Positions 2,974 to 58,575 of a stretch of DNA of 64,000 nt are shown one piece after another. The notes beneath the pieces were generated by a model. It saw only the letters and a program-made list of their open reading frames with translations, was not told where the DNA came from and made no database searches. The stretch comes from Falciphora oryzae (Eukaryota > Ascomycota > Sordariomycetes > Magnaporthales > Magnaporthaceae). Both the position numbers and the translations under genes were made by a program. Within the stretch, counting starts at the first letter, position 1, and each line of letters starts with the position of its first letter. Location: contig JNVV01000012.1 of NCBI GenBank assembly GCA_000733355.1, forward strand, positions 585,655-649,654, given 5' to 3'.

Positions 2974-3431
2974 TGTTACGACCACACCACGACGCGTGGG
3001 GACGACGCATGGGGACAGGAGGGCTGGGACCAAACCCCAGCGCGAAGCCTCAACCCCGCAATCAAAGGAGGTGGAATCACGTGACACCAACCGGCGATAA
3101 ATACGATATATCGGATTTAAACATATCACTCCTAGCTAAAATGATATGTTAGATCGGGGGTAATCACAACATATCACACCAAGCAAGCATAACGCCAAAA
3201 CTGGCTGGAAATAGGTCGTATATATAAGGAAAAGGTTCTCCAGCAAGTAAATAGCTATTAACTAAGGCCTCGGCATCAGTCAACCTAAGTTAGCTCCAAA
3301 GTACCCCCTTGGGCAAGCAATCTAAGCTTCTATCACCAGTTTCCCAGTTCCCCTAAAGCAACCCCTATCAAATGTACTGTTCAGCACCCTCCCTAAGTAT
3401 CCTACCCTAAAAGCAAAGCCTAATTGTAACA
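2974..3431 (+). repeat. Gypsy D 5' LTR
   Basis: A 458-bp LTR starting TGTTACGACC and ending TTGTAACA. A TATA-like TATATATAAGG lies at 3218-3228. No TGG-type tRNA primer site follows at 3432; the downstream TTTTAACTAATC is shared in form with gypsy C (TTTTGACTAATT), so an unusual or self-priming primer site is possible. Confidence 0.92.
3218..3230 (+). promoter_or_regulatory. TATA-like box in gypsy D 5' LTR
   Basis: GTATATATAAGG in the middle of the LTR, at the same relative position as GTGTATATAAGG in the gypsy C LTRs (about 38876 and 47968) and in the D 3' LTR (about 9938). Conservation across four LTRs supports it as the core promoter of the genomic transcript. Confidence 0.6.
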
Positions 3432-6059: not shown

Positions 6060-6990
6060 AAACGAATAAACCTCGTCGCACAAATGCGGAACGTCCCAAA
6101 AAAGTATTTTCAATACTAGAAACTGTTTAAAAAAAACCTGGAAACAGTACTCTCGGAACATAGGCCATTTAACCACGAAATTAAATTTAAACCAAAAACA
6201 CAACTCAAATACCAAAAGCTATATTAATTAAACCAAAAATAGCAGGAAGTACTAAAGGAATAACTAAAGGAAAACCTGCTAAAAGGACTTATCAAGCTTT
6301 CCAACTCTCCTATTGGATACGGAATACTATTCGTGCCAAAAAAAAACGGAAAAAAGCGGATATATATCAACTACCGACCGCTAAACGAGGCAACCATTAA
6401 AGATCGATATCCTTTGCCTTTTATCGACGAACTACGGAACAAATTTAACAAAGCCAAATATTTTACGGCTTTAAACCTACGCAAAGCTTATAACCTGCTA
6501 CGGATCAAAAAGGGTCAGGAATGGATAACAGCTTTTCGGACGAAATTCGGGGTCTTCGAATTTTTAGTAATAACCTTCGGGCTTACCAATGCGCCAGCCA
6601 TATTCCAGCGGATAATTAACCACGTATTGCGAAAGTACCTTAACATTTTTATGCTCGCATACCTGAACGATATCCTAATCTTTTCGGAAATATTAAAAAA
6701 ATATAAAAAGCATATGCATAAAATACTACAAAAGCTACAGGACGCCAAACTCTTAATTAACCCAGAAAAATGTATGTGGCATACGCAAAAGGTCGTTTTC
6801 CTAGGTTTTGTTATTACACCCAGAAAAGTTCGCATAAACCCTAAAAAGGTGCACGAGGTTAAAAAATAGCTTGCACCTACGAACGTTAGGGAGGTCCGAA
6901 GCTTCCTAAGGTTTATAAACTTTTACCGACGGTTTATCCGCAACTTTAGCAAAAAGGCTGCACCATTTACGAATTTTACCAAAAACAACA
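6060..6990 (+). pseudogene. Gypsy D reverse transcriptase domain
   Basis: RT fingers and palm are readable: [53 protein letters not shown] and the active site, which reads YLNDI at about 6659-6673 instead of YLDDI in gypsy C. Asp to Asn is a single G-to-A change, in line with the mutation pattern of this copy, and abolishes catalysis. A 178-codon stretch (6333-6869) remains open. Confidence 0.9.
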
Positions 6991-8907: not shown

Positions 8908-8979
8908 CGGCCCTACCGGGATTCGAACCCGAAACCTCGGCAAAAGAAGCCAAGGCTACATCCAATATGCCACAGGACC
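8908..8979 (-). tRNA. tRNA-like sequence inside gypsy D
   Basis: On the minus strand 72 nt fold as a cloverleaf: acceptor GGTCCTG pairing with TAGGGCC (G-T at the last pair), D-stem GCAT/ATGT, anticodon stem CCTTGGC/GCCGAGG with loop TTCTTTT (anticodon position would be CTT), and T-arm TCGGG-TTCGAAT-CCCGG. GGTTCGAATCC is a perfect pol III B box. The same sequence occurs at the same site in gypsy C. The missing purine at position 37 and the odd D arm argue against a working decoder tRNA. It begins about 12 nt past the stop of the antisense ORF. Confidence 0.6.
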
Positions 8980-8990
8980 TAAGGAAGTTA

Positions 8991-9578
8991 TTAGGAACTC
9001 CACGACTTACCCGATTGAAAAAAGACACCCAAGTCCAGGTCAGGATTGACCTCCAGAAAGGACCAGTCCGGAGAAACGGTAGCAGGAACGGAAGGCCCGG
9101 CCTCCGGAGCAGCCTGACGGGATTCCTGCTCTGCCTCTTCCCGTTCCACTCGCTCCAACTCCTTAACACTGTCAATACCGCGCCGTACCGCGCGCATCAT
9201 CTTCTTAAACCATAAGTCCTTTTACGCACAAAGCCGTTAAACACGGTCGCTCTCGGCACGCATTAGCTCCTCAGCCTTTCGACGAAACCTTTCAACCGCC
9301 GCGAGCTCAACGTCAAATTTGGAATGCTGTTCTGCAATCTTACGCAGCTGGTTAGACGAGACCCCTAGGACGTCGCAACGGGCGCGTCTTAGGCGAACGC
9401 ATTCCGCGCAACGAAAAAAGTCCTTTTGCGACACCTGGCAAAATACAAGGCCAACGGCCTCGCATACGGAACAGGAAGGCATATCGGAAAAGGATTGAAA
9501 AATAGAAAAAAAAAGGACATCTCAACGAACTGTCAAACGGACGTTGGAAGTTTTGCGTTTCTATACCCAACCAAACAT
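8991..9578 (-). pseudogene. Gypsy D antisense Cys-rich (Zn2Cys6-like) ORF
   Basis: Antisense to pol, between chromodomain and 3' LTR. The best start is MPSCSVCEAVG at 9482; an upstream ATG at 9578 matches the start of the longer gypsy C copy but is followed by a stop and a frameshift. Six Cys at residues 4, 7, 15, 25, 28 and 36 give C-x2-C-x7-C-x9-C-x2-C-x7-C, close to a Zn2Cys6 binuclear cluster. A charged helical region follows, then RAVRRGIDSVKELERVEREEA and a C-terminal NPDLDLGVFFQSGKSWSS. Two in-frame stops interrupt the linker (9237 and nearby). Function unknown; conserved with gypsy C along its whole length. Confidence 0.75.
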
Positions 9579-9693
9579 CTTGTCAGGATAAAAGGGGACG
9601 GGTGAGGTAAGGAAGGAAAGTACTTACCAACTAATAAAGGAAGGGAAAAATCAAGTATGGCCAAAGGGACTTGGCTTAAAAAAGGGGACCTGA

Positions 9694-10151
9694 TGTTACG
9701 ACCACACCACAACGCGTAAAAACAACGCATAAGGACAGGAGGGCTGGGACCAAACCCCAGCGCGAAGCCTCAACCCCGCAATCAAAGGAGGTGGAATCAC
9801 GTAACACCAACCGGCGATAAATACGATATATCGGACTTAAACATATCACTCCTAGCCAAAATGATATATTGGATCGGGGGTGATCACAACATATTACACT
9901 AAGCAGGCATAACGCTAAAACTGGCTGGAAATAGGTCGTGTATATAAGGAAAAGGTTCTCCAGCAGGTAAATAGCTATTAACTAAGGCCTCGGCATCAGT
10001 TAACCTAAGTTAGCTCCAAGGTACCCCCTTGGGCAAGCAATCTAAGCTTCTGTCACCAGTTTCCCAGTTCCCCTAAAGCAACCCCTATCAAGTGTACTGT
10101 TCAGCACCCTCCCTAGGTGTCCTACCCTAGGAGCAGAGCTTGATTGTAACA
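9694..10151 (+). repeat. Gypsy D 3' LTR
   Basis: A 458-bp LTR identical in length to the 5' copy. It is preceded by a purine-rich AAAAAAGGGGACC tract and followed by the target duplication GCAAT. It differs from the 5' LTR mainly by transitions, including clustered G-to-A near the start (GCGTAAAAACAACGCATAAGG against GCGTGGGGACGACGCATGGGG). Confidence 0.93.
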
Positions 10152-11559: not shown

Positions 11560-12040
11560 TGGACTTTGTCCGTAACGGTGGTAGCGTTATAAACTTCCTG
11601 TTAATACGTTGGCGTTCCGCCGTTTGGTCGTTTACTTTTCGGTTCCGTACCTATATGGGGGTTTTATTTGTAATTGGCGAAAAAAGGGGAAATTCCAGTC
11701 GTTTCCGATATGTAATTATTGCTAGCGAATTTTTTAAATAGGAGCTAATCGATTTAATTGTTTTGGTAATATAAATAAAACGCCCGCAAATATTATTTTA
11801 TATATGCGTTTAGGATTTTTATTTAGCTATCGGATTTCGGGTAAAACGATAACAAATATTTAAACATAACGCCGAGTTTTTTGCTTAACTTTTTCCAAAA
11901 AGTAGATACGAATTATTTGCCGCGATTTGAAACGATAGTATTAGGGGTACCGTATAAACGGTATATTTGCGCGAAAAAAGCGTTTGTTAAGCGGCCCGCG
12001 TCGGTTTTAATTATTAAAATATAATAAAGCATTTTTATTA
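11560..12040 (-). pseudogene. Gypsy E integrase core, C-terminal half
   Basis: Minus-strand translation contains RLYGTPNTIVSNRGK-x-FVSTFWKKLSKKLGV, the second catalytic Asp region (Asp now Asn) of an rve integrase, then a degraded Glu region and the PFFRQLQIKP-type segment corresponding to PFFANYG. MITE M1 splits the domain at 12041. Confidence 0.75.
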
Positions 12041-12468
12041 ACGTGGTTCACAAGCGAGTGACGCACACAAGCGAGTGACGCACTTCCAAATCCCATACTA
12101 AACGCCGTTTTCGACATCCTTGCTAACTCGACCAATTTTGATCTAAATTCGATGCAATTTTGTAAATAACGTTTTAATTATATACCTAATTTCATGTAAT
12201 TATCTTCAATTTTATAACCCTAACCCGGGTGAGATATTAAGAAATTTGCTAATTTCACTCCTGCATTTTCAATATCTCACCCGGGTTAGGGTTATAAAAT
12301 TGAAGATAATTACATGAAATTAGGTATATAATTAAAACGTTATTTACAAAATTGCATCGAATTTGGATCAAAATTGGTCGAGTTAGCAAGGATGTCGAAA
12401 ACGGCGTTTAGTATGAGATTTGGAAGTGCGTCACTCGCTCGTGTGCGTCACTCGCTTGTGAACCACGT
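12041..12468. mobile_element. MITE M1 (pogo-type, 428-bp foldback)
   Basis: Flanked by TA (12039-12040, 12469-12470). Both ends read ACGTGGTTCA followed by two tandem copies of CACAAGCGAGTGACG. The whole element is one long near-palindrome with a short central loop; the arms nearest the centre contain AACCCTAACCCGGGTGAG, a telomere-repeat-like motif. No coding capacity. The TIR motif matches pogo P4, its likely source of transposase. Confidence 0.93.
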
Positions 12469-12470
12469 TA

Positions 12471-12921
12471 ACCGGTTTATTACTATTATAATATAATAAT
12501 AAACGATATTTTAACGTTTGCATAACGGCAGCGGGCTAACGTAATTTACAAATATATCCGCTTATAGCTTAAATAGTATTGCTAACGGTTTTAACAATCC
12601 GTTTGGGGATTTTTTTTTACCTTTAACATTGTGCACATATAGCAATTTTAAATAAATACGCTAATGTTTCGCGATAAACGTAGCTAAATGTAAATTTTAC
12701 GTATTAAATCCCAGGTTTTATTGCGTTTTAAATATTCGTTTGGTAACAAACTGTGCGTTTTATACAAAATTTAAAATCGTAACGTATCGTCGAGCGGAAT
12801 AAACAACCGTTTTTTTGCAATAAATGCGCTTTTATATCGCTTAGTAACTAGCTTTCGCTAGTTTAACCTATTTCTAAATCCAAATAGGGAATTATCACTT
12901 CGTTAAATTTTATAAGCAAAA
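12471..12921 (-). pseudogene. Gypsy E integrase N-terminal region
   Basis: Highly AT-shifted minus-strand sequence between MITE M1 and copia F, in the position of the integrase zinc-binding domain and core start. Only short stretches translate sensibly. The bases CAAAA at 12917-12921 are duplicated at 20806-20810 around copia F, after which E continues with RNase H. Confidence 0.5.
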
Positions 12922-24600: not shown

Positions 24601-25297
24601 ACGTATCCGCGTTTTAGGGAAAAAAGCATTCCGCTAAATCGTAAAGCTTTTAAAGGAGTTTGTTAAGGATTTTTTCCATTGTTGCAAAAGGTTTCCTTTT
24701 TAGGAACTTTTTATATCTCGTTAAATACCCGGCGTAAATATAGTACCTTTTTAACTTAATCCCTAAAAGCTTAAAGCCTAGGTTTTAATTTCGTACTTTC
24801 GGGAAACTTTTCCGTTTAGAAAATAGCCTGAAAAATTGCTATTAGCGTATCGTTAGCGAAATTATCGGACGATTAGTGGTTAAATAAGGTATTTTTTTTT
24901 AATTAGGGCGAGGAATTTCGCTTATAGCATAATTTAAATATGCATTTTTTTTGCTTATAAAGGGTTAGGAAATTAGGTGCGTTTAAAATGCGGATTTCCA
25001 TATCCGGCGCCCGTGCTCGCTCGGTTTCCGCTATCATAACGCCGTTTATATTTAAAGTTCCCGCTGCCTAATTAATCGTTAAGTTATAATATTTTAACTA
25101 CGGTAGGCCTAAAATAATATCCGGTCCCTTTAGCGGCTAATAATAAAACGTTATAATTTCCGTAATGTTCCCGAACGTGTAAATAGTTTTAACGTAATCG
25201 GTAATATGCTTTGCTAGCGCTCCGTTAACGAAACGGAAAGGTTTTAATTCTAGTAGTTGGAATTTAAATAGGTTATATATATATATATATACGCGAA
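24601..25297 (-). pseudogene. Gypsy E protease-to-RT region
   Basis: Minus-strand translation near 25140-25000 reads DIILGLP then LKYYNLTIN and TLNINGVMIAE, the C-terminal part of the aspartic protease domain (normally GxDIILGxPWL). The catalytic DSG is not seen. Sequence is AT-rich with retained CpG. A run of AT at 25274-25291 follows. Confidence 0.7.
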
Positions 25298-25299
25298 TA

Positions 25300-25729
25300 A
25301 CGTGGTTCACAAGCGAGCGAGACACACAAGCGAGCGAGACACTTCAAAATCCCATATTAAACAGCGTTTTTTTTCGATTAAATAACTCGCTCAATTTGCG
25401 GCTAAATTCTACCAAAATTAAATTAGTTATATTCAACTGTATAATGATTATAACCTGAATTTTCCGCATTTTTATTATTACTCCTTTTAGGTTAGTTGCA
25501 TACTGTTCACAGTGTATTACACAGTGTTGCAAACTAATCCAAAAGGAGTAATAATAAAAATGCGGAAAATTCAAATTATAATCTTTATACAGTTAAATAT
25601 AATTGTTTTAATTTTGGTAGAATTTAGCCGCAAATTGAGCGAGTTATTTAATCGAAAAAAAACGCTGTTTAATATGGGATTTTGAAGTGTCTCGCTCGCT
25701 TGTGTGTCTCGCTCGCTTGTGAACCACGT
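25300..25729. mobile_element. MITE M3 (430 bp)
   Basis: TA duplications at 25298-25299 and 25730-25731. The ends carry two tandem copies of CACAAGCGAGCGAGACA after ACGTGGTT. Near-perfect foldback; the centre contains ACTCCTTTTAGGTTAG and its complement around a TGTTCACAGTGTA loop. Same core family as M4 and M5 but different TIR motif. Confidence 0.93.
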
Positions 25730-25731
25730 TA

Positions 25732-25836
25732 TGTTATTAATAAACGCCTATAAGGAATATTTTATATCGATTAGTAATTAATAAAATACCGGTCGGTTTC
25801 CGTAAAAAAGCAACATTATGTTAAAAAAAAATATTA
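25732..25836. other. Gypsy E fragment between MITEs M3 and M4
   Basis: About 100 bp of AT-rich E sequence with no readable domain; its place corresponds to the gag-protease junction on the minus strand. Confidence 0.5.
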
Positions 25837-38653: not shown

Positions 38654-39088
38654 TGTTACGACCATACAGGTGGCGGGGACAGGAGGCCTGGGTCAAGCCC
38701 CGGGAAGGAAGCACCCTCAACCCCGCACTTGGAAAAGGAAGGGTCATGTGGAAGGACACGTGACCTTAAGGTGATATGTTTGATATGCGACATAGCAGAC
38801 ATAGCACAGGTCTTTAAAGTGATATATCTAATATGCGACATAGCAGATATAGCACAGATTGGGAAAGACCAGGTCGTGTATATAAGGGAAAGGTTTTTCC
38901 ACGGTTAAATAGCTTTAACTAAGGCATCGGCATCAGTTAACTTAAGTTAGTTCTAAGGTACCCCCTTAGGCAAGCAATTTAAGCTTCTGTTACCAGTTTC
39001 CCGGTTCCCTTGAAGCAACCCCTGTTAAGTGTACTGTTTAGCACCTTCCCTAGGTGTCCTACCCTAAGAGCAAAGCCTAATTGTAACA
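38654..39088 (+). repeat. Gypsy C 5' LTR
   Basis: 435 bp. Holds two copies of a 48-bp tandem repeat (about 38769-38866) based on GATATGCGACATAGCAGACA. TATA-like GTGTATATAAGG at 38876-38887. Confidence 0.93.
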
Positions 39089-39137: not shown

Positions 39138-40852
39138 ATGTCGGCGTCCGGTTCCAAGCAAACGGATTAGCCCTTTACCGTCGAGTACGAAGGGAAGAAG
39201 TATTAGTATTGGGAGGTCAAATCGGGGATTTGCAGCGCAGTCACAGTGGCCAGCAGGGTTTCGGTTAGTTGGATTGGGCCCTGACAGGCGCTATAAATAG
39301 CGCTGTCGGGGCTCCAAGCTTAGTGGGTGGAACAGGCTTGTATTGCAGGTGAGGGGCGCCAACAATCGCTTCCCTCATATACCCACCGACATCGATCCCG
39401 CGGGTTCTCCGCCGTGGGGGCTTCTGGTGCCGCAAGCGATTTTCCGAAAAATTATTTTGTATGGGGTTTCCAAAAAATCGACCCACGACCACCAAACCCA
39501 TCTCCGCGTTAAGCCTCCAATTCTGACTTGTGCAAATTGACTCCTGACCAATTCTGTGTAGGGTAGATGTGCAGGGTAGGCGAGTCAGTGCGACCCACAA
39601 CGGCTAACTTGGGTGCTTAGGCATCCTACAGGGGCTACAGGCCACCTTCAGGCTTTTAGTAAGCGCTATAGATGCTGTAAGCCACCCCCGGGTACGCTAT
39701 AAGCCCTGCCCGCTACTCCTGTGCACAACCCCACAACAGTACAGGGTAGATAATCTAATAAGAGTAGTACATGGTAGGTTGGGCCTATGCACCCAACCTA
39801 AGCTAAATACATTAGTTCTTTTAACACCTACTTTTCGTTTTACGAGGCTTATTTCGGTACAGAGGAAAAAAAAGTGGCCTACGCCGCTATACGTTTCGGA
39901 GGAAAAGTTAAAAATTGGTTCCAGCTTACGTAGGCGGACTACTTTTAGGGCGTGGAATCTAAAAAGCAGATACAGATTGTGTTTGTTAATTTCGAAAGAT
40001 TCGGAAAAGAAGTCGGCAAGGTTTTCGGCTAGGTCGACGAGCGATTAGTTGCGGAAAAAGAAATCCTTAGCCTTTGATAAAAAGGGCCAGCCTTTATGTA
40101 CGCTTTAAAGTTCTAACGCTTCGTAACCAAGCTCGATTGGACCGACCAGATTAAAATGGCGCACTTTTACTGGGGTTTCTGAAAAAATGTAAAGGACGAG
40201 CTTTCCAAAGCGGACCGACCGGAGGATTTCCCGGACTATGTCCAAATGGCCGTCCGTATTAGCGACAGGCTGTACGAACGACGATTTGAAAAAAAGGTCA
40301 ACTAACTAAGGTGGTGAATAATAAAAACAACCATAAAAAAGACAAGCAGCAGCCAAATACGGTTTATAACATACACCCTAAACCTATAAACTTTAGCGCT
40401 GGAGCCACCTATTTGCAAAAGCAAAGCAATAAGAAAAGGCAGGACCTTAAGGACGGGAAATGCTTTAAATGTGGTTAAAAGGGCCATATCAAACGAGATT
40501 GCCCGTAGCGGCAGGCGGCAGTTACCCGACGGGGAAACGCTTAAGCGGAAAACAGCTTGTGCCTCGGAGCAGCTTTTAGCTGGATTTATTGCTGCGAGGA
40601 CTTGTGCGCGACGCACTAATTTGATAAGGACGCGACCGGCTGGTACCCCAAAAGGCGGGTAGCCGCGACGCGACGGATCCGGACGATCTTTGATAAAGGT
40701 CCCATTAGGATCGAGTACGATAGCGAGGGAGAATAAGTTTTCGCTACCGGATTTACGGAATTCGAGGAAAAAGATAATACCGCTGCGTGGGTTACCGAGT
40801 CTACCCACGACACCGATAACGAAATCGACAACGAGCTATTAGGTTAGACCCA
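39138..40852 (+). pseudogene. Gypsy C gag, interrupted by filler DNA
   Basis: Starts MSASGSKQTD-like at 39138, breaks at about 39205, resumes at about 39826 with AYFSFYEAYFGTEEKKVAYA-type capsid sequence. The CCHC knuckle CFKCG-x-KGHIKRDC is at 40460-40505. Ends at a TAG (40846-40848) that is in frame with the following MAKKRKEAEG ORF. Compared with gypsy D, about 180 bp of gag are missing at the filler. Confidence 0.85.
39206..39825. other. Non-RIP filler replacing part of gypsy C gag
   Basis: About 620 bp, absent from gypsy D, replacing about 180 bp of gag. Base composition is balanced, with none of the stop-generating transitions of its surroundings. It contains hairpins: GACAGGCGCTATAAATAGCGC (39272-39292) with its arms, and TAGGTTGGGCCTATGCACCC (39774-39793) leading to the complementary CCCAACCTA. 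No duplication beyond a possible ATTAGT at both junctions. Origin not recognised. Confidence 0.7.
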
Positions 40853-46440: not shown

Positions 46441-46800
46441 AAAACGAAACGACCAAATGATAAGCTGGATTATAAGAAGCTTGGGCCGTTTAAGGTGAAA
46501 AAGGTGGTATCAAACGTTAATTACGAACTATAACTCCCCCTAACTATGGAAATCCACCCAGTTTTTTACGTCTCTTTGCTAGAACCAGCACCGTTTGGAA
46601 CGGAAAGCAGCGAGTTAGTGGAAGTCGAGCCAAAGCAAGAGTACGAAGTCGAAAAATTTTTGGACGAACGCACGAGGCGACGCTTTAAGGAGTATTTGAT
46701 TAAGTGGAAAGGGTACGGCTACGAGGAAAACACGTGGGAAAAAGCGACAAACCTTGGGAATTGTTAGGAAGCGTTAGCGGAATACTAGCGGAAGCGCTTG
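46441..46800 (+). pseudogene. Gypsy C integrase tail with chromodomain
   Basis: MEIHPVFYVSLLEPAPFG linker and chromodomain EYEVEKFLDERTRRRFKEYL, then IKWKGYGYEENTWEKATNL with both aromatic cage Trp positions kept. A 73-codon open stretch 46546-46767. Such chromodomains read histone methylation and target integration. Confidence 0.9.
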
Positions 46801-46867
46801 TTAGAAGGTTAGCAAAAAATATACCAAGGAACTAACTACCAAAGTTCGACAATTGGTTCCCTGGTAA

Positions 46868-46939
46868 CGGCCTTGCCGGGATTCGAACCCGAAACCTCGG
46901 CAAAAGAAGCTAAGGCTACACCCAGTGTGCTATAGGACC
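46868..46939 (-). tRNA. tRNA-like sequence inside gypsy C
   Basis: 72 nt on the minus strand, same position as in gypsy D. B box GGTTCGAATCC intact, T-arm and long anticodon stem kept. Differences from D are the strand-specific transitions of each element; the apparent ancestral form has a fully paired 7-bp acceptor (GGTCCTG with CAGGGCC) and discriminator G. Lies 11 nt beyond the antisense ORF stop at 46951. Most likely a captured tRNA-derived element, not a decoder tRNA. Confidence 0.6.
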
Positions 46940-46950
46940 TAAGGAAGTTG

Positions 46951-47535
46951 TTAAGAACTTTACGATTTACCCGATTGAAGAAAAACACCCAGGTCGAGGG
47001 CAGGATTGACTTCGGAACCCGGCCAGTTTAGAAAGGAAAGCGATAGCGGAGGAAAGGAAGGGGCAAATAGGGCAGAAGGCGTAGTAAGGGCTTGCGTGGC
47101 AGCTTTTTCGGCTTCTTCCCGCTTAATCCGCTCTAGCTTTTCCAAACTGTCGATACCCCGACGTATCGCACGCATCTTTTTTTCCAATTACACTTTTTTT
47201 TGTTTTCGCAAACGTTTTATTTTTGCGTTAATGAGGCGACGCTCCTTTTTAGCAGCTTCCAATTTAGTTTTACGTTGTGTGAACTGATGCTGAAGCTCCT
47301 GAAGTTGTGCAAGCGAAGGGCCCAGTACGTCGCAGCGGGAACGGCCTTGACGGATACACTCTACGCATCGGGAAGAGTTTTGAGGAGAAACCTCGCAATA
47401 GGAACGACCTAGGGCCTTGTAAGAAGAACAGGAAGGCATTTCAATTGAAGAAGAAATGAGGGCGGCAAGGAGGTTGTCGCGACGAATAGTCGAACTCGCA
47501 ATAGGAGTTTTTCGTTTTTGCACCCGATCCGACAT
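46951..47535 (-). pseudogene. Gypsy C antisense Cys-rich (Zn2Cys6-like) ORF
   Basis: 195 codons antisense to pol with only two stops (47188-47190, where Gln is likely, and 46960-46962, Trp in gypsy D). Starts MSDRVQKRKTPIASS at 47535, 114 bp from the 3' LTR; MPSCSSYKALG is an internal ATG at 47439. Five of six cluster Cys remain (second is Tyr): SC-x2-Y, SYC, RCVECIRQGRSRCDV. Then a coiled coil (LAQLQELQHQFTQRKTKLEA, RRLINAKIKRLRKQ) and a tail with RAIRRGIDSLEKLERIKREE and NPALDLGVFLQSGKS. A DNA-binding or Gag-interacting regulator is conceivable; not shown. Confidence 0.8.
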
Positions 47536-47648
47536 TTTGTTAGAAGCAAGGGGATGGGAGATGGCAAGGAAGGAAAGTACTTACCATTGATAAAAGGAAG
47601 GGATAGCAGATATGGTCAAAGGGATTTGGCCTAGAAGAGGGGACCTAA

Positions 47649-48179
47649 TGTTACGACCATACAGGTGGCGGGGACAGGAGGCCTGGGTCAAGCCCCGGGA
47701 AGGAAGCACCCTTAACCCCGCATTTGGAAAAGGAAGGGTTATGTGGAAGGATACGTGACCTTAAGGTGATATGTCTGATATGCGACATAGCAGACATAGC
47801 ACAGGTCCTTAAGGTGATATGTCTGATATGCGACATAGCAGACATAGCACAGGTCCTCAAGGTGATATGTCTGATATGCGACATAGCAGACATAGCACAG
47901 GTCCTTAAGGTGATATGTCTGATATGCGATATAGCAGACATAGCACAGATTGGGAAGGACCAGGTCGTGTATATAAGGGAAAGGTTCTTCCACGGTTAGA
48001 TAGCTTTGACTGAGGCATCGGCATCAGTTAACCTAAGTTAGCTCCAAGGTACCCCCTTGGGCAAGCAATCTAAGCTTCTGTCACCAGTTTCCCGGTTCCC
48101 CTGAAGCAACCCCTGTTAAGTGTACTGTTTAGCACCCTCCCTAGGTGTCCTACCCTAGGAGCAGAGCCTGATTGTAACA
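47649..48179 (+). repeat. Gypsy C 3' LTR with four 48-bp repeats
   Basis: 531 bp, exactly 96 bp longer than the 5' LTR because the 48-bp unit (GATATGTCTGATATGCGACA and following) is present four times (about 47764-47955) and not two. Preceded by the purine tract AGAAGAGGGGACC. Confidence 0.94.
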
Positions 48180-57097: not shown

Positions 57098-57117
57098 CGA
57101 AGGTAAAAAATCAAATA

Positions 57118-57545
57118 ACGTGGTTCACAAGCGAGTGACGCACACAAGCGAGTGACGCACTTCCAAATCCCATACTAAACGCCGTTTTCGACATCCTTGC
57201 TAACTCGACCAATTTTAATCCAAATTCGATGCAATTTTGTACATAACGTTTTAATTATATACTTGATTTTATATAATTATCTTCAATTTTACAACCCTAA
57301 CCCGGGTGAGATATTGAAAATGCAGGAGTTAAATTAGCGAATTTCTCAATATCTCACCCGGGTTAGGGTTGTAAAATTGAAGATAATTATATAAAATCAA
57401 GTATATAGTTAAAACGTTATGTACAAAATTGCATCGAATTTGGATTAAAATTGGTCGAGTTAGCAAGGATGTCGAAAACGGCGTTTAGTATGGGATTTGG
57501 AAGTGCGTCACTCGCTTGTGTGCGTCACTCGCTTGTGAACCACGT
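57118..57545. mobile_element. MITE M7 (428 bp)
   Basis: TA duplications at 57116-57117 and 57546-57547. Same length, TIR motif (two CACAAGCGAGTGACG copies per end) and telomere-like core as M1. Near-perfect foldback. It sits in the integrase of gypsy A, 16 bp past the copia G insertion. Confidence 0.94.
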
Positions 57546-57547
57546 TA

Positions 57548-58575
57548 ATTTTATCGCATTTTCGCTAAAAAATACTAGCGACTATACGGTGTGCATTTAA
57601 ATATTATTTTTAATAAAAATTCCAAATTTACGAGCCATTTATGGAAGGATTTCCTCCGTTTGGTAGGCATTAAGCCAAAAATAAGCACTGCTTTCCATTT
57701 TTAAACGCATAGATAAACCGAAAGGCTTAATTAAAGGCTAAAAACCTACTTTAGGTTTTTCGTAAATTACGAAATAATTAACTAGGTCAAGCTGTTACCT
57801 ACGGCGGAATTTGCTTATAATAATATATTTTCGGCAAATACCTTTATTACTCCCTTTTTCGCCAACTACGAGTACTACCTAGCTTTTAATAATCCCTTTT
57901 TTCTAAAACAAGTACTTAATCCGGCAAACTAATTTTACCGGCATTAGATAACCTAAATGCACGAAAAAGCCAAATAACCTTTCGAAAAAGCCCGGGAACG
58001 AATAAAGCATTAGGCCGACAAAAAGAAAAGCCCTTCGCCGGTTTTTACTAAAAAACAGTTCGTTATATTAAACGCCCGGCATATAAAAACCCGTCGCCCC
58101 GCTAAAAAACTCGATACCAAAATGCTTAGGCCTTTCCGGATCTTTAAAGTTATTTTTCCCACGGTGGTACGATTGGCCCTACCTAAAACCTGGAAATTTT
58201 ATAACGCTTTTTACGTGTCCTTTATCGAACCCTACCGCTTTAGCATTTAGGCACGACCTAACCCTAACTAGGTATTGCGGGAGGCCCTTTCAGTTATAGG
58301 AAATTTCGTTGTAAAAAAGGTTATAAATTCCATGGATACAGGCGGGAAGGTTCGTTACTTTGTTTAATGGGAAAATTACTTACGAAAAAAGGATTGGACG
58401 TAGGAACTTTGAGAGCATTTCGATACCGACGGATTTGAGTAATACGTTGTTGCTTTTTATTAGCTTAACCCCGATAATCCTAGGGACCCCCGCGTGCTAC
58501 AAGATATAAGAACGGCCGCATCTTTTAAACGGGCTTTAAAAGGTTTCGAAACGCGCCTTAGGAAAAGGAGGATAG
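57548..58575 (+). pseudogene. Gypsy A integrase C-terminus and tail
   Basis: Degraded end of pol: LGQAVTYGGICL (from LxQLLPxAEFA), then KEKPFAGFY and DARHIK-type residues, a degraded FHVSFI-like linker near 58210 and a chromodomain-like region near 58340-58430. A purine tract GGAAAAGGAGGATAG borders the 3' LTR. Confidence 0.65.

Follow-up and report, generated by a model that had tools for sequence, protein, structure and literature searches.

We analysed a 64,000-nucleotide window of the 50.2 Mb assembly of the fungus Falciphora oryzae (contig JNVV01000012.1, positions 585,655 to 649,654). It contains two gypsy-type long terminal repeat (LTR) retrotransposons, C and D. Both carry an accessory gene that starts just internal to the 3' LTR and lies on the strand opposite to gag-pol. 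The frame of this antisense gene was protein-coding and constrained before it decayed, and elements that are otherwise very similar have exchanged this gene and the U3 part of the LTR as a single block. We give a roughly even chance to the whole reading of these data, namely that the antisense accessory gene encodes a regulator acting on the element's own U3/LTR promoter.

C and D are chromodomain gypsy elements. LTR comparison placed the LTRs of C at 38654-39088 and 47649-48179 and those of D at 2974-3431 and 9694-10151 (all plus strand); both pairs have the termini TGTTAC...GTAACA. In Pfam searches, a reverse transcriptase (PF00078) was matched in D (6333-6866, E=7.8e-30) and a chromo domain (PF00385) in C (46534-46767, E=2.4e-15). 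Reverse transcriptase, a chromodomain at the C-terminus of pol (46630-46770 in C, plus strand) and an LTR at each end are the features of a chromovirus, in agreement with the gypsy context proposed from a sequence-only reading of the window.

In both elements, the antisense frame lies in the interval that separates the end of pol from the 3' LTR. In C, the open reading frame (ORF; 46939-47535, minus strand) runs from an ATG at 47535 to a TAG at 46939-46941 and is decayed, with several in-frame stops, the earliest at codon 116. Its Cys cluster, from MPSC through the final Cys (47332-47439, minus), was placed by alignment; the second Cys is replaced by Tyr and the other five are kept. A helical, coiled-coil-like region follows at 47100-47316 (minus), with approximate limits transferred from the model of the homologue P0002 by alignment. 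The ORF of D (8979-9578, minus) also has several in-frame stops. Its six-Cys cluster (9375-9482, minus) is complete, with the spacing C-x2-C-x7-C-x9-C-x2-C-x7-C. The Cys frames are thus as the sequence-only reading had described them. That reading had also called them antisense to pol, which is correct for the strand and not for an overlap. The frame lies outside pol, past the pol stop, and is therefore not kept open by any sense frame.

The antisense frame is open over 198 codons, with five of the six Cys, in a copy elsewhere in the genome (L002). A database search with this natural protein returned 13 relatives. With a profile built from seven members, the number of matched database proteins rose to 143 (E<=1e-3; 120 listed), and a further search with divergent members gave at least 46 matches, new ones being from Monosporascus and further metagenomes. 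The relatives are mostly annotated as hypothetical proteins or nameless, and a few metagenome members bear automatically assigned names, septal ring factor EnvC and seryl-tRNA synthetase being examples. The six-Cys motif is found in 101 of 121 relatives, the other 20 being truncated or Cys-altered forms. Its spacing is x2-x7-x9-x2-x7 in 83 of the 101 and x2-x6-x9-x2-x7 in 15. Gaps in the alignment of relatives across genera preserve the frame.

Constraint was assessed by codon position. Repeat-induced point mutation yields transitions exclusively, and presumably caused the transitions seen between copies here; transversions were therefore chosen for the test. In the comparison of the L002 frame with D, their distribution over codon positions 1:2:3 is 31:21:56 (p=1.2e-4), as compared with 20:22:12 in the same phase in the rest of the cassette defined below (p=0.21). 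A cruder nucleotide alignment gave 38:23:47 (p=0.017). The open frame of L002, the database relatives and this third-position excess uphold the earlier proposal that the frame was coding before decay; the opposite outcome, other copies lacking an open frame or any constraint, was not seen. A chance open frame is ruled out by the codon-position bias together with the relatives. More broadly, it is extremely improbable that the frame is non-functional and that antisense RNA alone, if anything, matters: both window copies contain stops and retroelement antisense RNAs may work through RNA silencing, as discussed in a review (PMC7264820), but the transversion bias, the strong Cys conservation and the frame-keeping gaps all speak for a protein. 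A role for antisense RNA alongside the protein is possible.

The gene is a regular companion of pol. A search of this genome with the relative P0009 gave 29 matches, merging to 23 loci, and a pol end faces the antisense gene within 1.5 kb at 22 of them. The ORF between pol and 3' LTR is thus conserved in most copies. The single locus without a facing pol end, L076 (G000:C50:246987-247796), has a D-like antisense gene and U3 at 68% identity. Another locus, L075 (G000:C80:37646-38052), holds a relative of the gene in two overlapping open frames, next to a chromodomain remnant. In 18 of the 20 loci L002-L021, most of the frame can be followed, in some as two pieces; in L014 and L021 it can be followed only in part.

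C and D were compared in 60-base steps over 1.3 kb of the 5' end and 1.8 kb of the 3' end, R-U5 being assumed to be the LTR part past the TATA-like box. At the pol end, in the tRNA-like stretch described below and in R-U5, leader and gag, the differences are nearly all transitions; transversions amount to 0-3% per step, barring a repeat inserted in C and its edges. Within one block they amount to 12-33% per step, barring the edges and the step of the conserved polypurine tract. This exchanged cassette (46996-47996 in C, 9036-9967 in D) comprises most of the antisense ORF, its leader and U3, with the polypurine-tract island conserved inside it. Typing of L002-L021, L016 being D itself, revealed 12 C-type copies, in which the Cys part has 0.5-0.9% transversions relative to window C and the coiled-coil part none (0%). 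Their U3 values are 0-0.4% in 11 of the 12 and 6.6% in L011, which breaks off inside the LTR. Five D-type copies besides that of the window show 0-0.6% relative to D across the coiled-coil, Cys and U3 parts, whereas values between types are 14-25%. L014 and L021 represent a third and a fourth version of the cassette.

A second block, covering the chromodomain (46615-46824), has two versions that have diverged from each other, with transversions of up to 21% per step, on elements that are very similar in other respects. In L002 and L003, the C cassette is joined to a different chromodomain block. The pol-end value is raised likewise in L004 and L011. The chromodomain block is a second exchanged module in the former pair and probably in the latter. 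Mosaicism therefore reaches beyond the antisense/U3 cassette. In other fungi, hand-picked protein pairs were compared, at the protein level only, and some show a similar contrast. In P. oryzae, the Cys and linker part of P0010 is 63% identical to that of P0026, and the tail 97%; for P0062 and P0076 of Cordyceps, the respective values are 62% and 96%. The pair P0031/P0044 shows the reverse direction, with 94% and 80%. By contrast, the two parts differ little in three Gaeumannomyces pairs (P0002/P0003, 60% and 73%; P0002/P0100, 58% and 65%; P0003/P0100, 53% and 63%).

The sequence-only reading had suggested the Zn2Cys6-plus-coiled-coil plan of fungal transcription factors. Predicted models do show a long helix after the cysteines, as expected of the coiled coil, and the best structural neighbours of the predicted D piece are Gal4-type proteins (HAP1, PUT3, PPR1). 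These proteins resemble the family in having six Cys with two CxxC pairs, then a linker and a coiled coil. The predictions point to a Cys part that may fold like a Zn2Cys6 binuclear cluster, followed by linker and coiled coil. The protein is therefore probably a dimer binding DNA.

The Zn2Cys6 profile agrees less well with this plan. All 16 family proteins that were scanned stayed below the PF00172 gathering score of 21 bits; window D, the best, scored 14.4 bits and P0092 11.5 bits. In both, the protein's own first half aligns to profile positions 17-35. The Zn2Cys6 spacing rule is C-x2-C-x6-C-x5-12-C-x2-C-x6-8-C. The first loop of the family is x7 in 84, x8 in 1 and x6 in 16 of the 101 motif-bearing proteins, so that the 16 x6 members conform to the rule and the x7 and x8 members, unlike Gal4-type proteins, do not; the other spacings conform. 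The loop between Cys2 and Cys3 is weakly basic, with a mean of 1.35 K/R in 117 motif-bearing proteins of 148, as compared with 4.22 in nine Zn2Cys6 domains of the same genome. The basic residues and the Asp mark are found in the second half of the cluster and not, as in Gal4-type proteins, in the first. The plan may also bring to mind a captured fragment of a host transcription factor with targets in the host and not in the element, such as silencing or stress genes, in a genome with at least 126 Zn2Cys6 domain matches. This origin is improbable: besides the unreached PF00172 cut-off, the matches listed in protein searches with family members include no named transcription factor, and the gene faces a pol end at nearly all of its loci in this genome.

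U3 of both types contains inverted repeats. In the C 3' LTR, four 48-bp repeats (47759-47948, plus) have a unit that holds TATGTCTG-N13-CAGACATA, and about two such repeats are present in the 5' LTR (38766-38857, plus). In a test of this C arrangement, inverted arms of at least 8 were obtained in 10 of 2000 shuffles. U3 of the D 5' LTR has three half-sites of its own type, AACATATCA / TGATATGTT / AACATATCA (3120-3176, plus), arranged as AACATATCA-N13-TGATATGTT-N17-AACATATCA. Two half-sites are kept in the D 3' LTR, where the pair with arms of at least 7 is gone. In the other cassette versions, L014 has none of these half-sites and L021 has one.

Upstream of the antisense ATG, we observed a 5' splice-donor-like GTAAGTAC (47577-47584 in C, 9620-9627 in D, both minus), a pyrimidine tract and a branch-like CTAAC. 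Among 19 C- and D-type copies, the donor is exact in 8, altered in 7 (e.g. GTAAATAC) and without a match to the pattern in L007, L008, L011 and L013; it reads GTAAATA in L014, L079 and L086. In P. oryzae 70-15, a 'variant' model, P0016, begins MPSCS and stands alongside P0010, which begins MSSRV; the pair looks as expected from removal of the upstream intron.

Self-regulation might operate as follows. The antisense transcript would begin in or beside the U3 of the 3' LTR and would hold a short intron, not always spliced out. Its protein would bind the TATGT half-sites, which are repeated and inverted in U3, and so determine how active the LTR promoter of its own element is; we lean towards a repressor or copy-number control. 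During reverse transcription, minus-strand strong-stop DNA is transferred to the 3' end of the RNA genome. If this DNA moved to a different co-packaged RNA and copying later switched back, U3 and the adjoining 3' gene would be replaced, with R-U5 and gag-pol retained. A regulator encoded beside U3 would therefore retain its target, and the match of protein and target would be preserved. The joint exchange of gene and U3 thus provides a new argument for DNA binding and LTR control by the antisense protein, which we infer, and self-regulation by a zinc-cluster dimer is the best-supported function.

Linkage alone could, however, account for the co-exchange of gene and U3. A possible, if less probable, explanation is that a real accessory protein acts elsewhere than on U3; it could, for example, serve nuclear import, join the chromodomain in targeting chromatin or be a partner of Gag or RNA. 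Its gene would travel with U3 only through their shared 3' position, since after the first strand transfer the two are copied as one. The positions of the breakpoints are consistent with reverse transcription, as C and D share R-U5 and the pol end and differ only in the 3' end with U3, and the mosaic chromodomain indicates that exchange is not peculiar to the antisense gene. Nuclear or import roles have also been proposed for plant antisense proteins (PMC7264820). On the other hand, the predicted zinc-cluster and coiled-coil plan and the inverted repeats in both U3 types suggest LTR binding.

Antisense genes in the same interval have been described in other elements. In plants, where such ORFs are known between pol and the 3' LTR (PMC11963269, PMC7264820), Retand, Grande and RIRE2 have an antisense ORF that resembles the C/D gene in its position, in a suggested role as DNA-binding regulator and in nearby tandem repeats (PMC11963269). 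Retand belongs to a non-chromovirus lineage, unlike the chromodomain elements C and D, and its ORF encodes TRP28 (PF04195) in 97% of clusters (PMC11963269); PF04195 was not among the Pfam matches of 14 family members at E<=1. A fungal parallel by description is Boty brtn of Botrytis cinerea and Sclerotinia sclerotiorum, also an antisense gene between pol and the 3' LTR of a retrotransposon (PMC7264820). No Botrytis protein was named among the matches listed in the family protein searches. The word antisense is absent from the main text of a survey of fungal LTR elements (PMC3248453) and of two P. oryzae papers (PMC10691877, PMC9694575). Tnt1/Retrolyc1 subfamilies are alike in coding regions and unlike in U3 (PMC1838419); the variability reported there is that of U3, whereas the C/D block additionally includes the antisense gene. 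HBZ of human T-cell leukaemia virus type 1 is likewise an antisense protein expressed from the 3' LTR side that affects sense transcription. It is a basic leucine zipper protein, and thus a coiled-coil dimer, but has no zinc cluster, so that the resemblance would be one of possible mode of action and not of descent.

Beyond self-regulation, zinc-cluster regulator and U3 operator could form an exchangeable cassette that defines immunity groups in fungal gypsy elements, swapping allowing an element to evade control by others with the same gag-pol. We consider this idea doubtful; it likens the cassette to the repressor-operator region of lambdoid phages, and on it the zinc binuclear cluster would have a novel arrangement, with its halves reordered.

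A tRNA-like sequence begins on the final base of the antisense stop codon. In C (46868-46939, minus; Lys CTT) it was called by ARAGORN with a relaxed score and had no match at default settings. In D (8908-8979, minus) it scores 33.4 bits with the Rfam tRNA model (gathering score 29). Of the 19 C- and D-type copies, 14 give an ARAGORN call at the relaxed score. The B box is perfect in 17 of the 19 and likewise in L014 and L086; that of L075 differs by one base, and in L021, L076 and L079 no B box was found at the expected place. In most copies, this sequence sits between converging pol and antisense gene and, by eye, is unlike the host tRNA-Lys(CTT) genes. It may possibly serve as a boundary or 3'-end signal between the converging genes.

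Elsewhere in the window, the repeat inserted in gag of C (39217-39817) is matched at least 40 times over nearly its full length, with 97-100% identity, and looks recently active. Three large hairpins (12037-12483, 25297-25732 and 57103-57550), whose ends carry 17-bp tandem motifs, are probably a family of inverted-repeat elements.

The cassette predicts that each protein type recognises its own U3 and not that of the other type. If the regulator reading is true, more than 100 Sordariomycete and metagenome proteins (the profile matches above), mostly hypothetical, would be regulators of elements and not host genes, and they would form a zinc-cluster-like family missed by the standard profile. 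The role of antisense genes in LTR retrotransposons, described as open in a review (PMC7264820), would then become testable.
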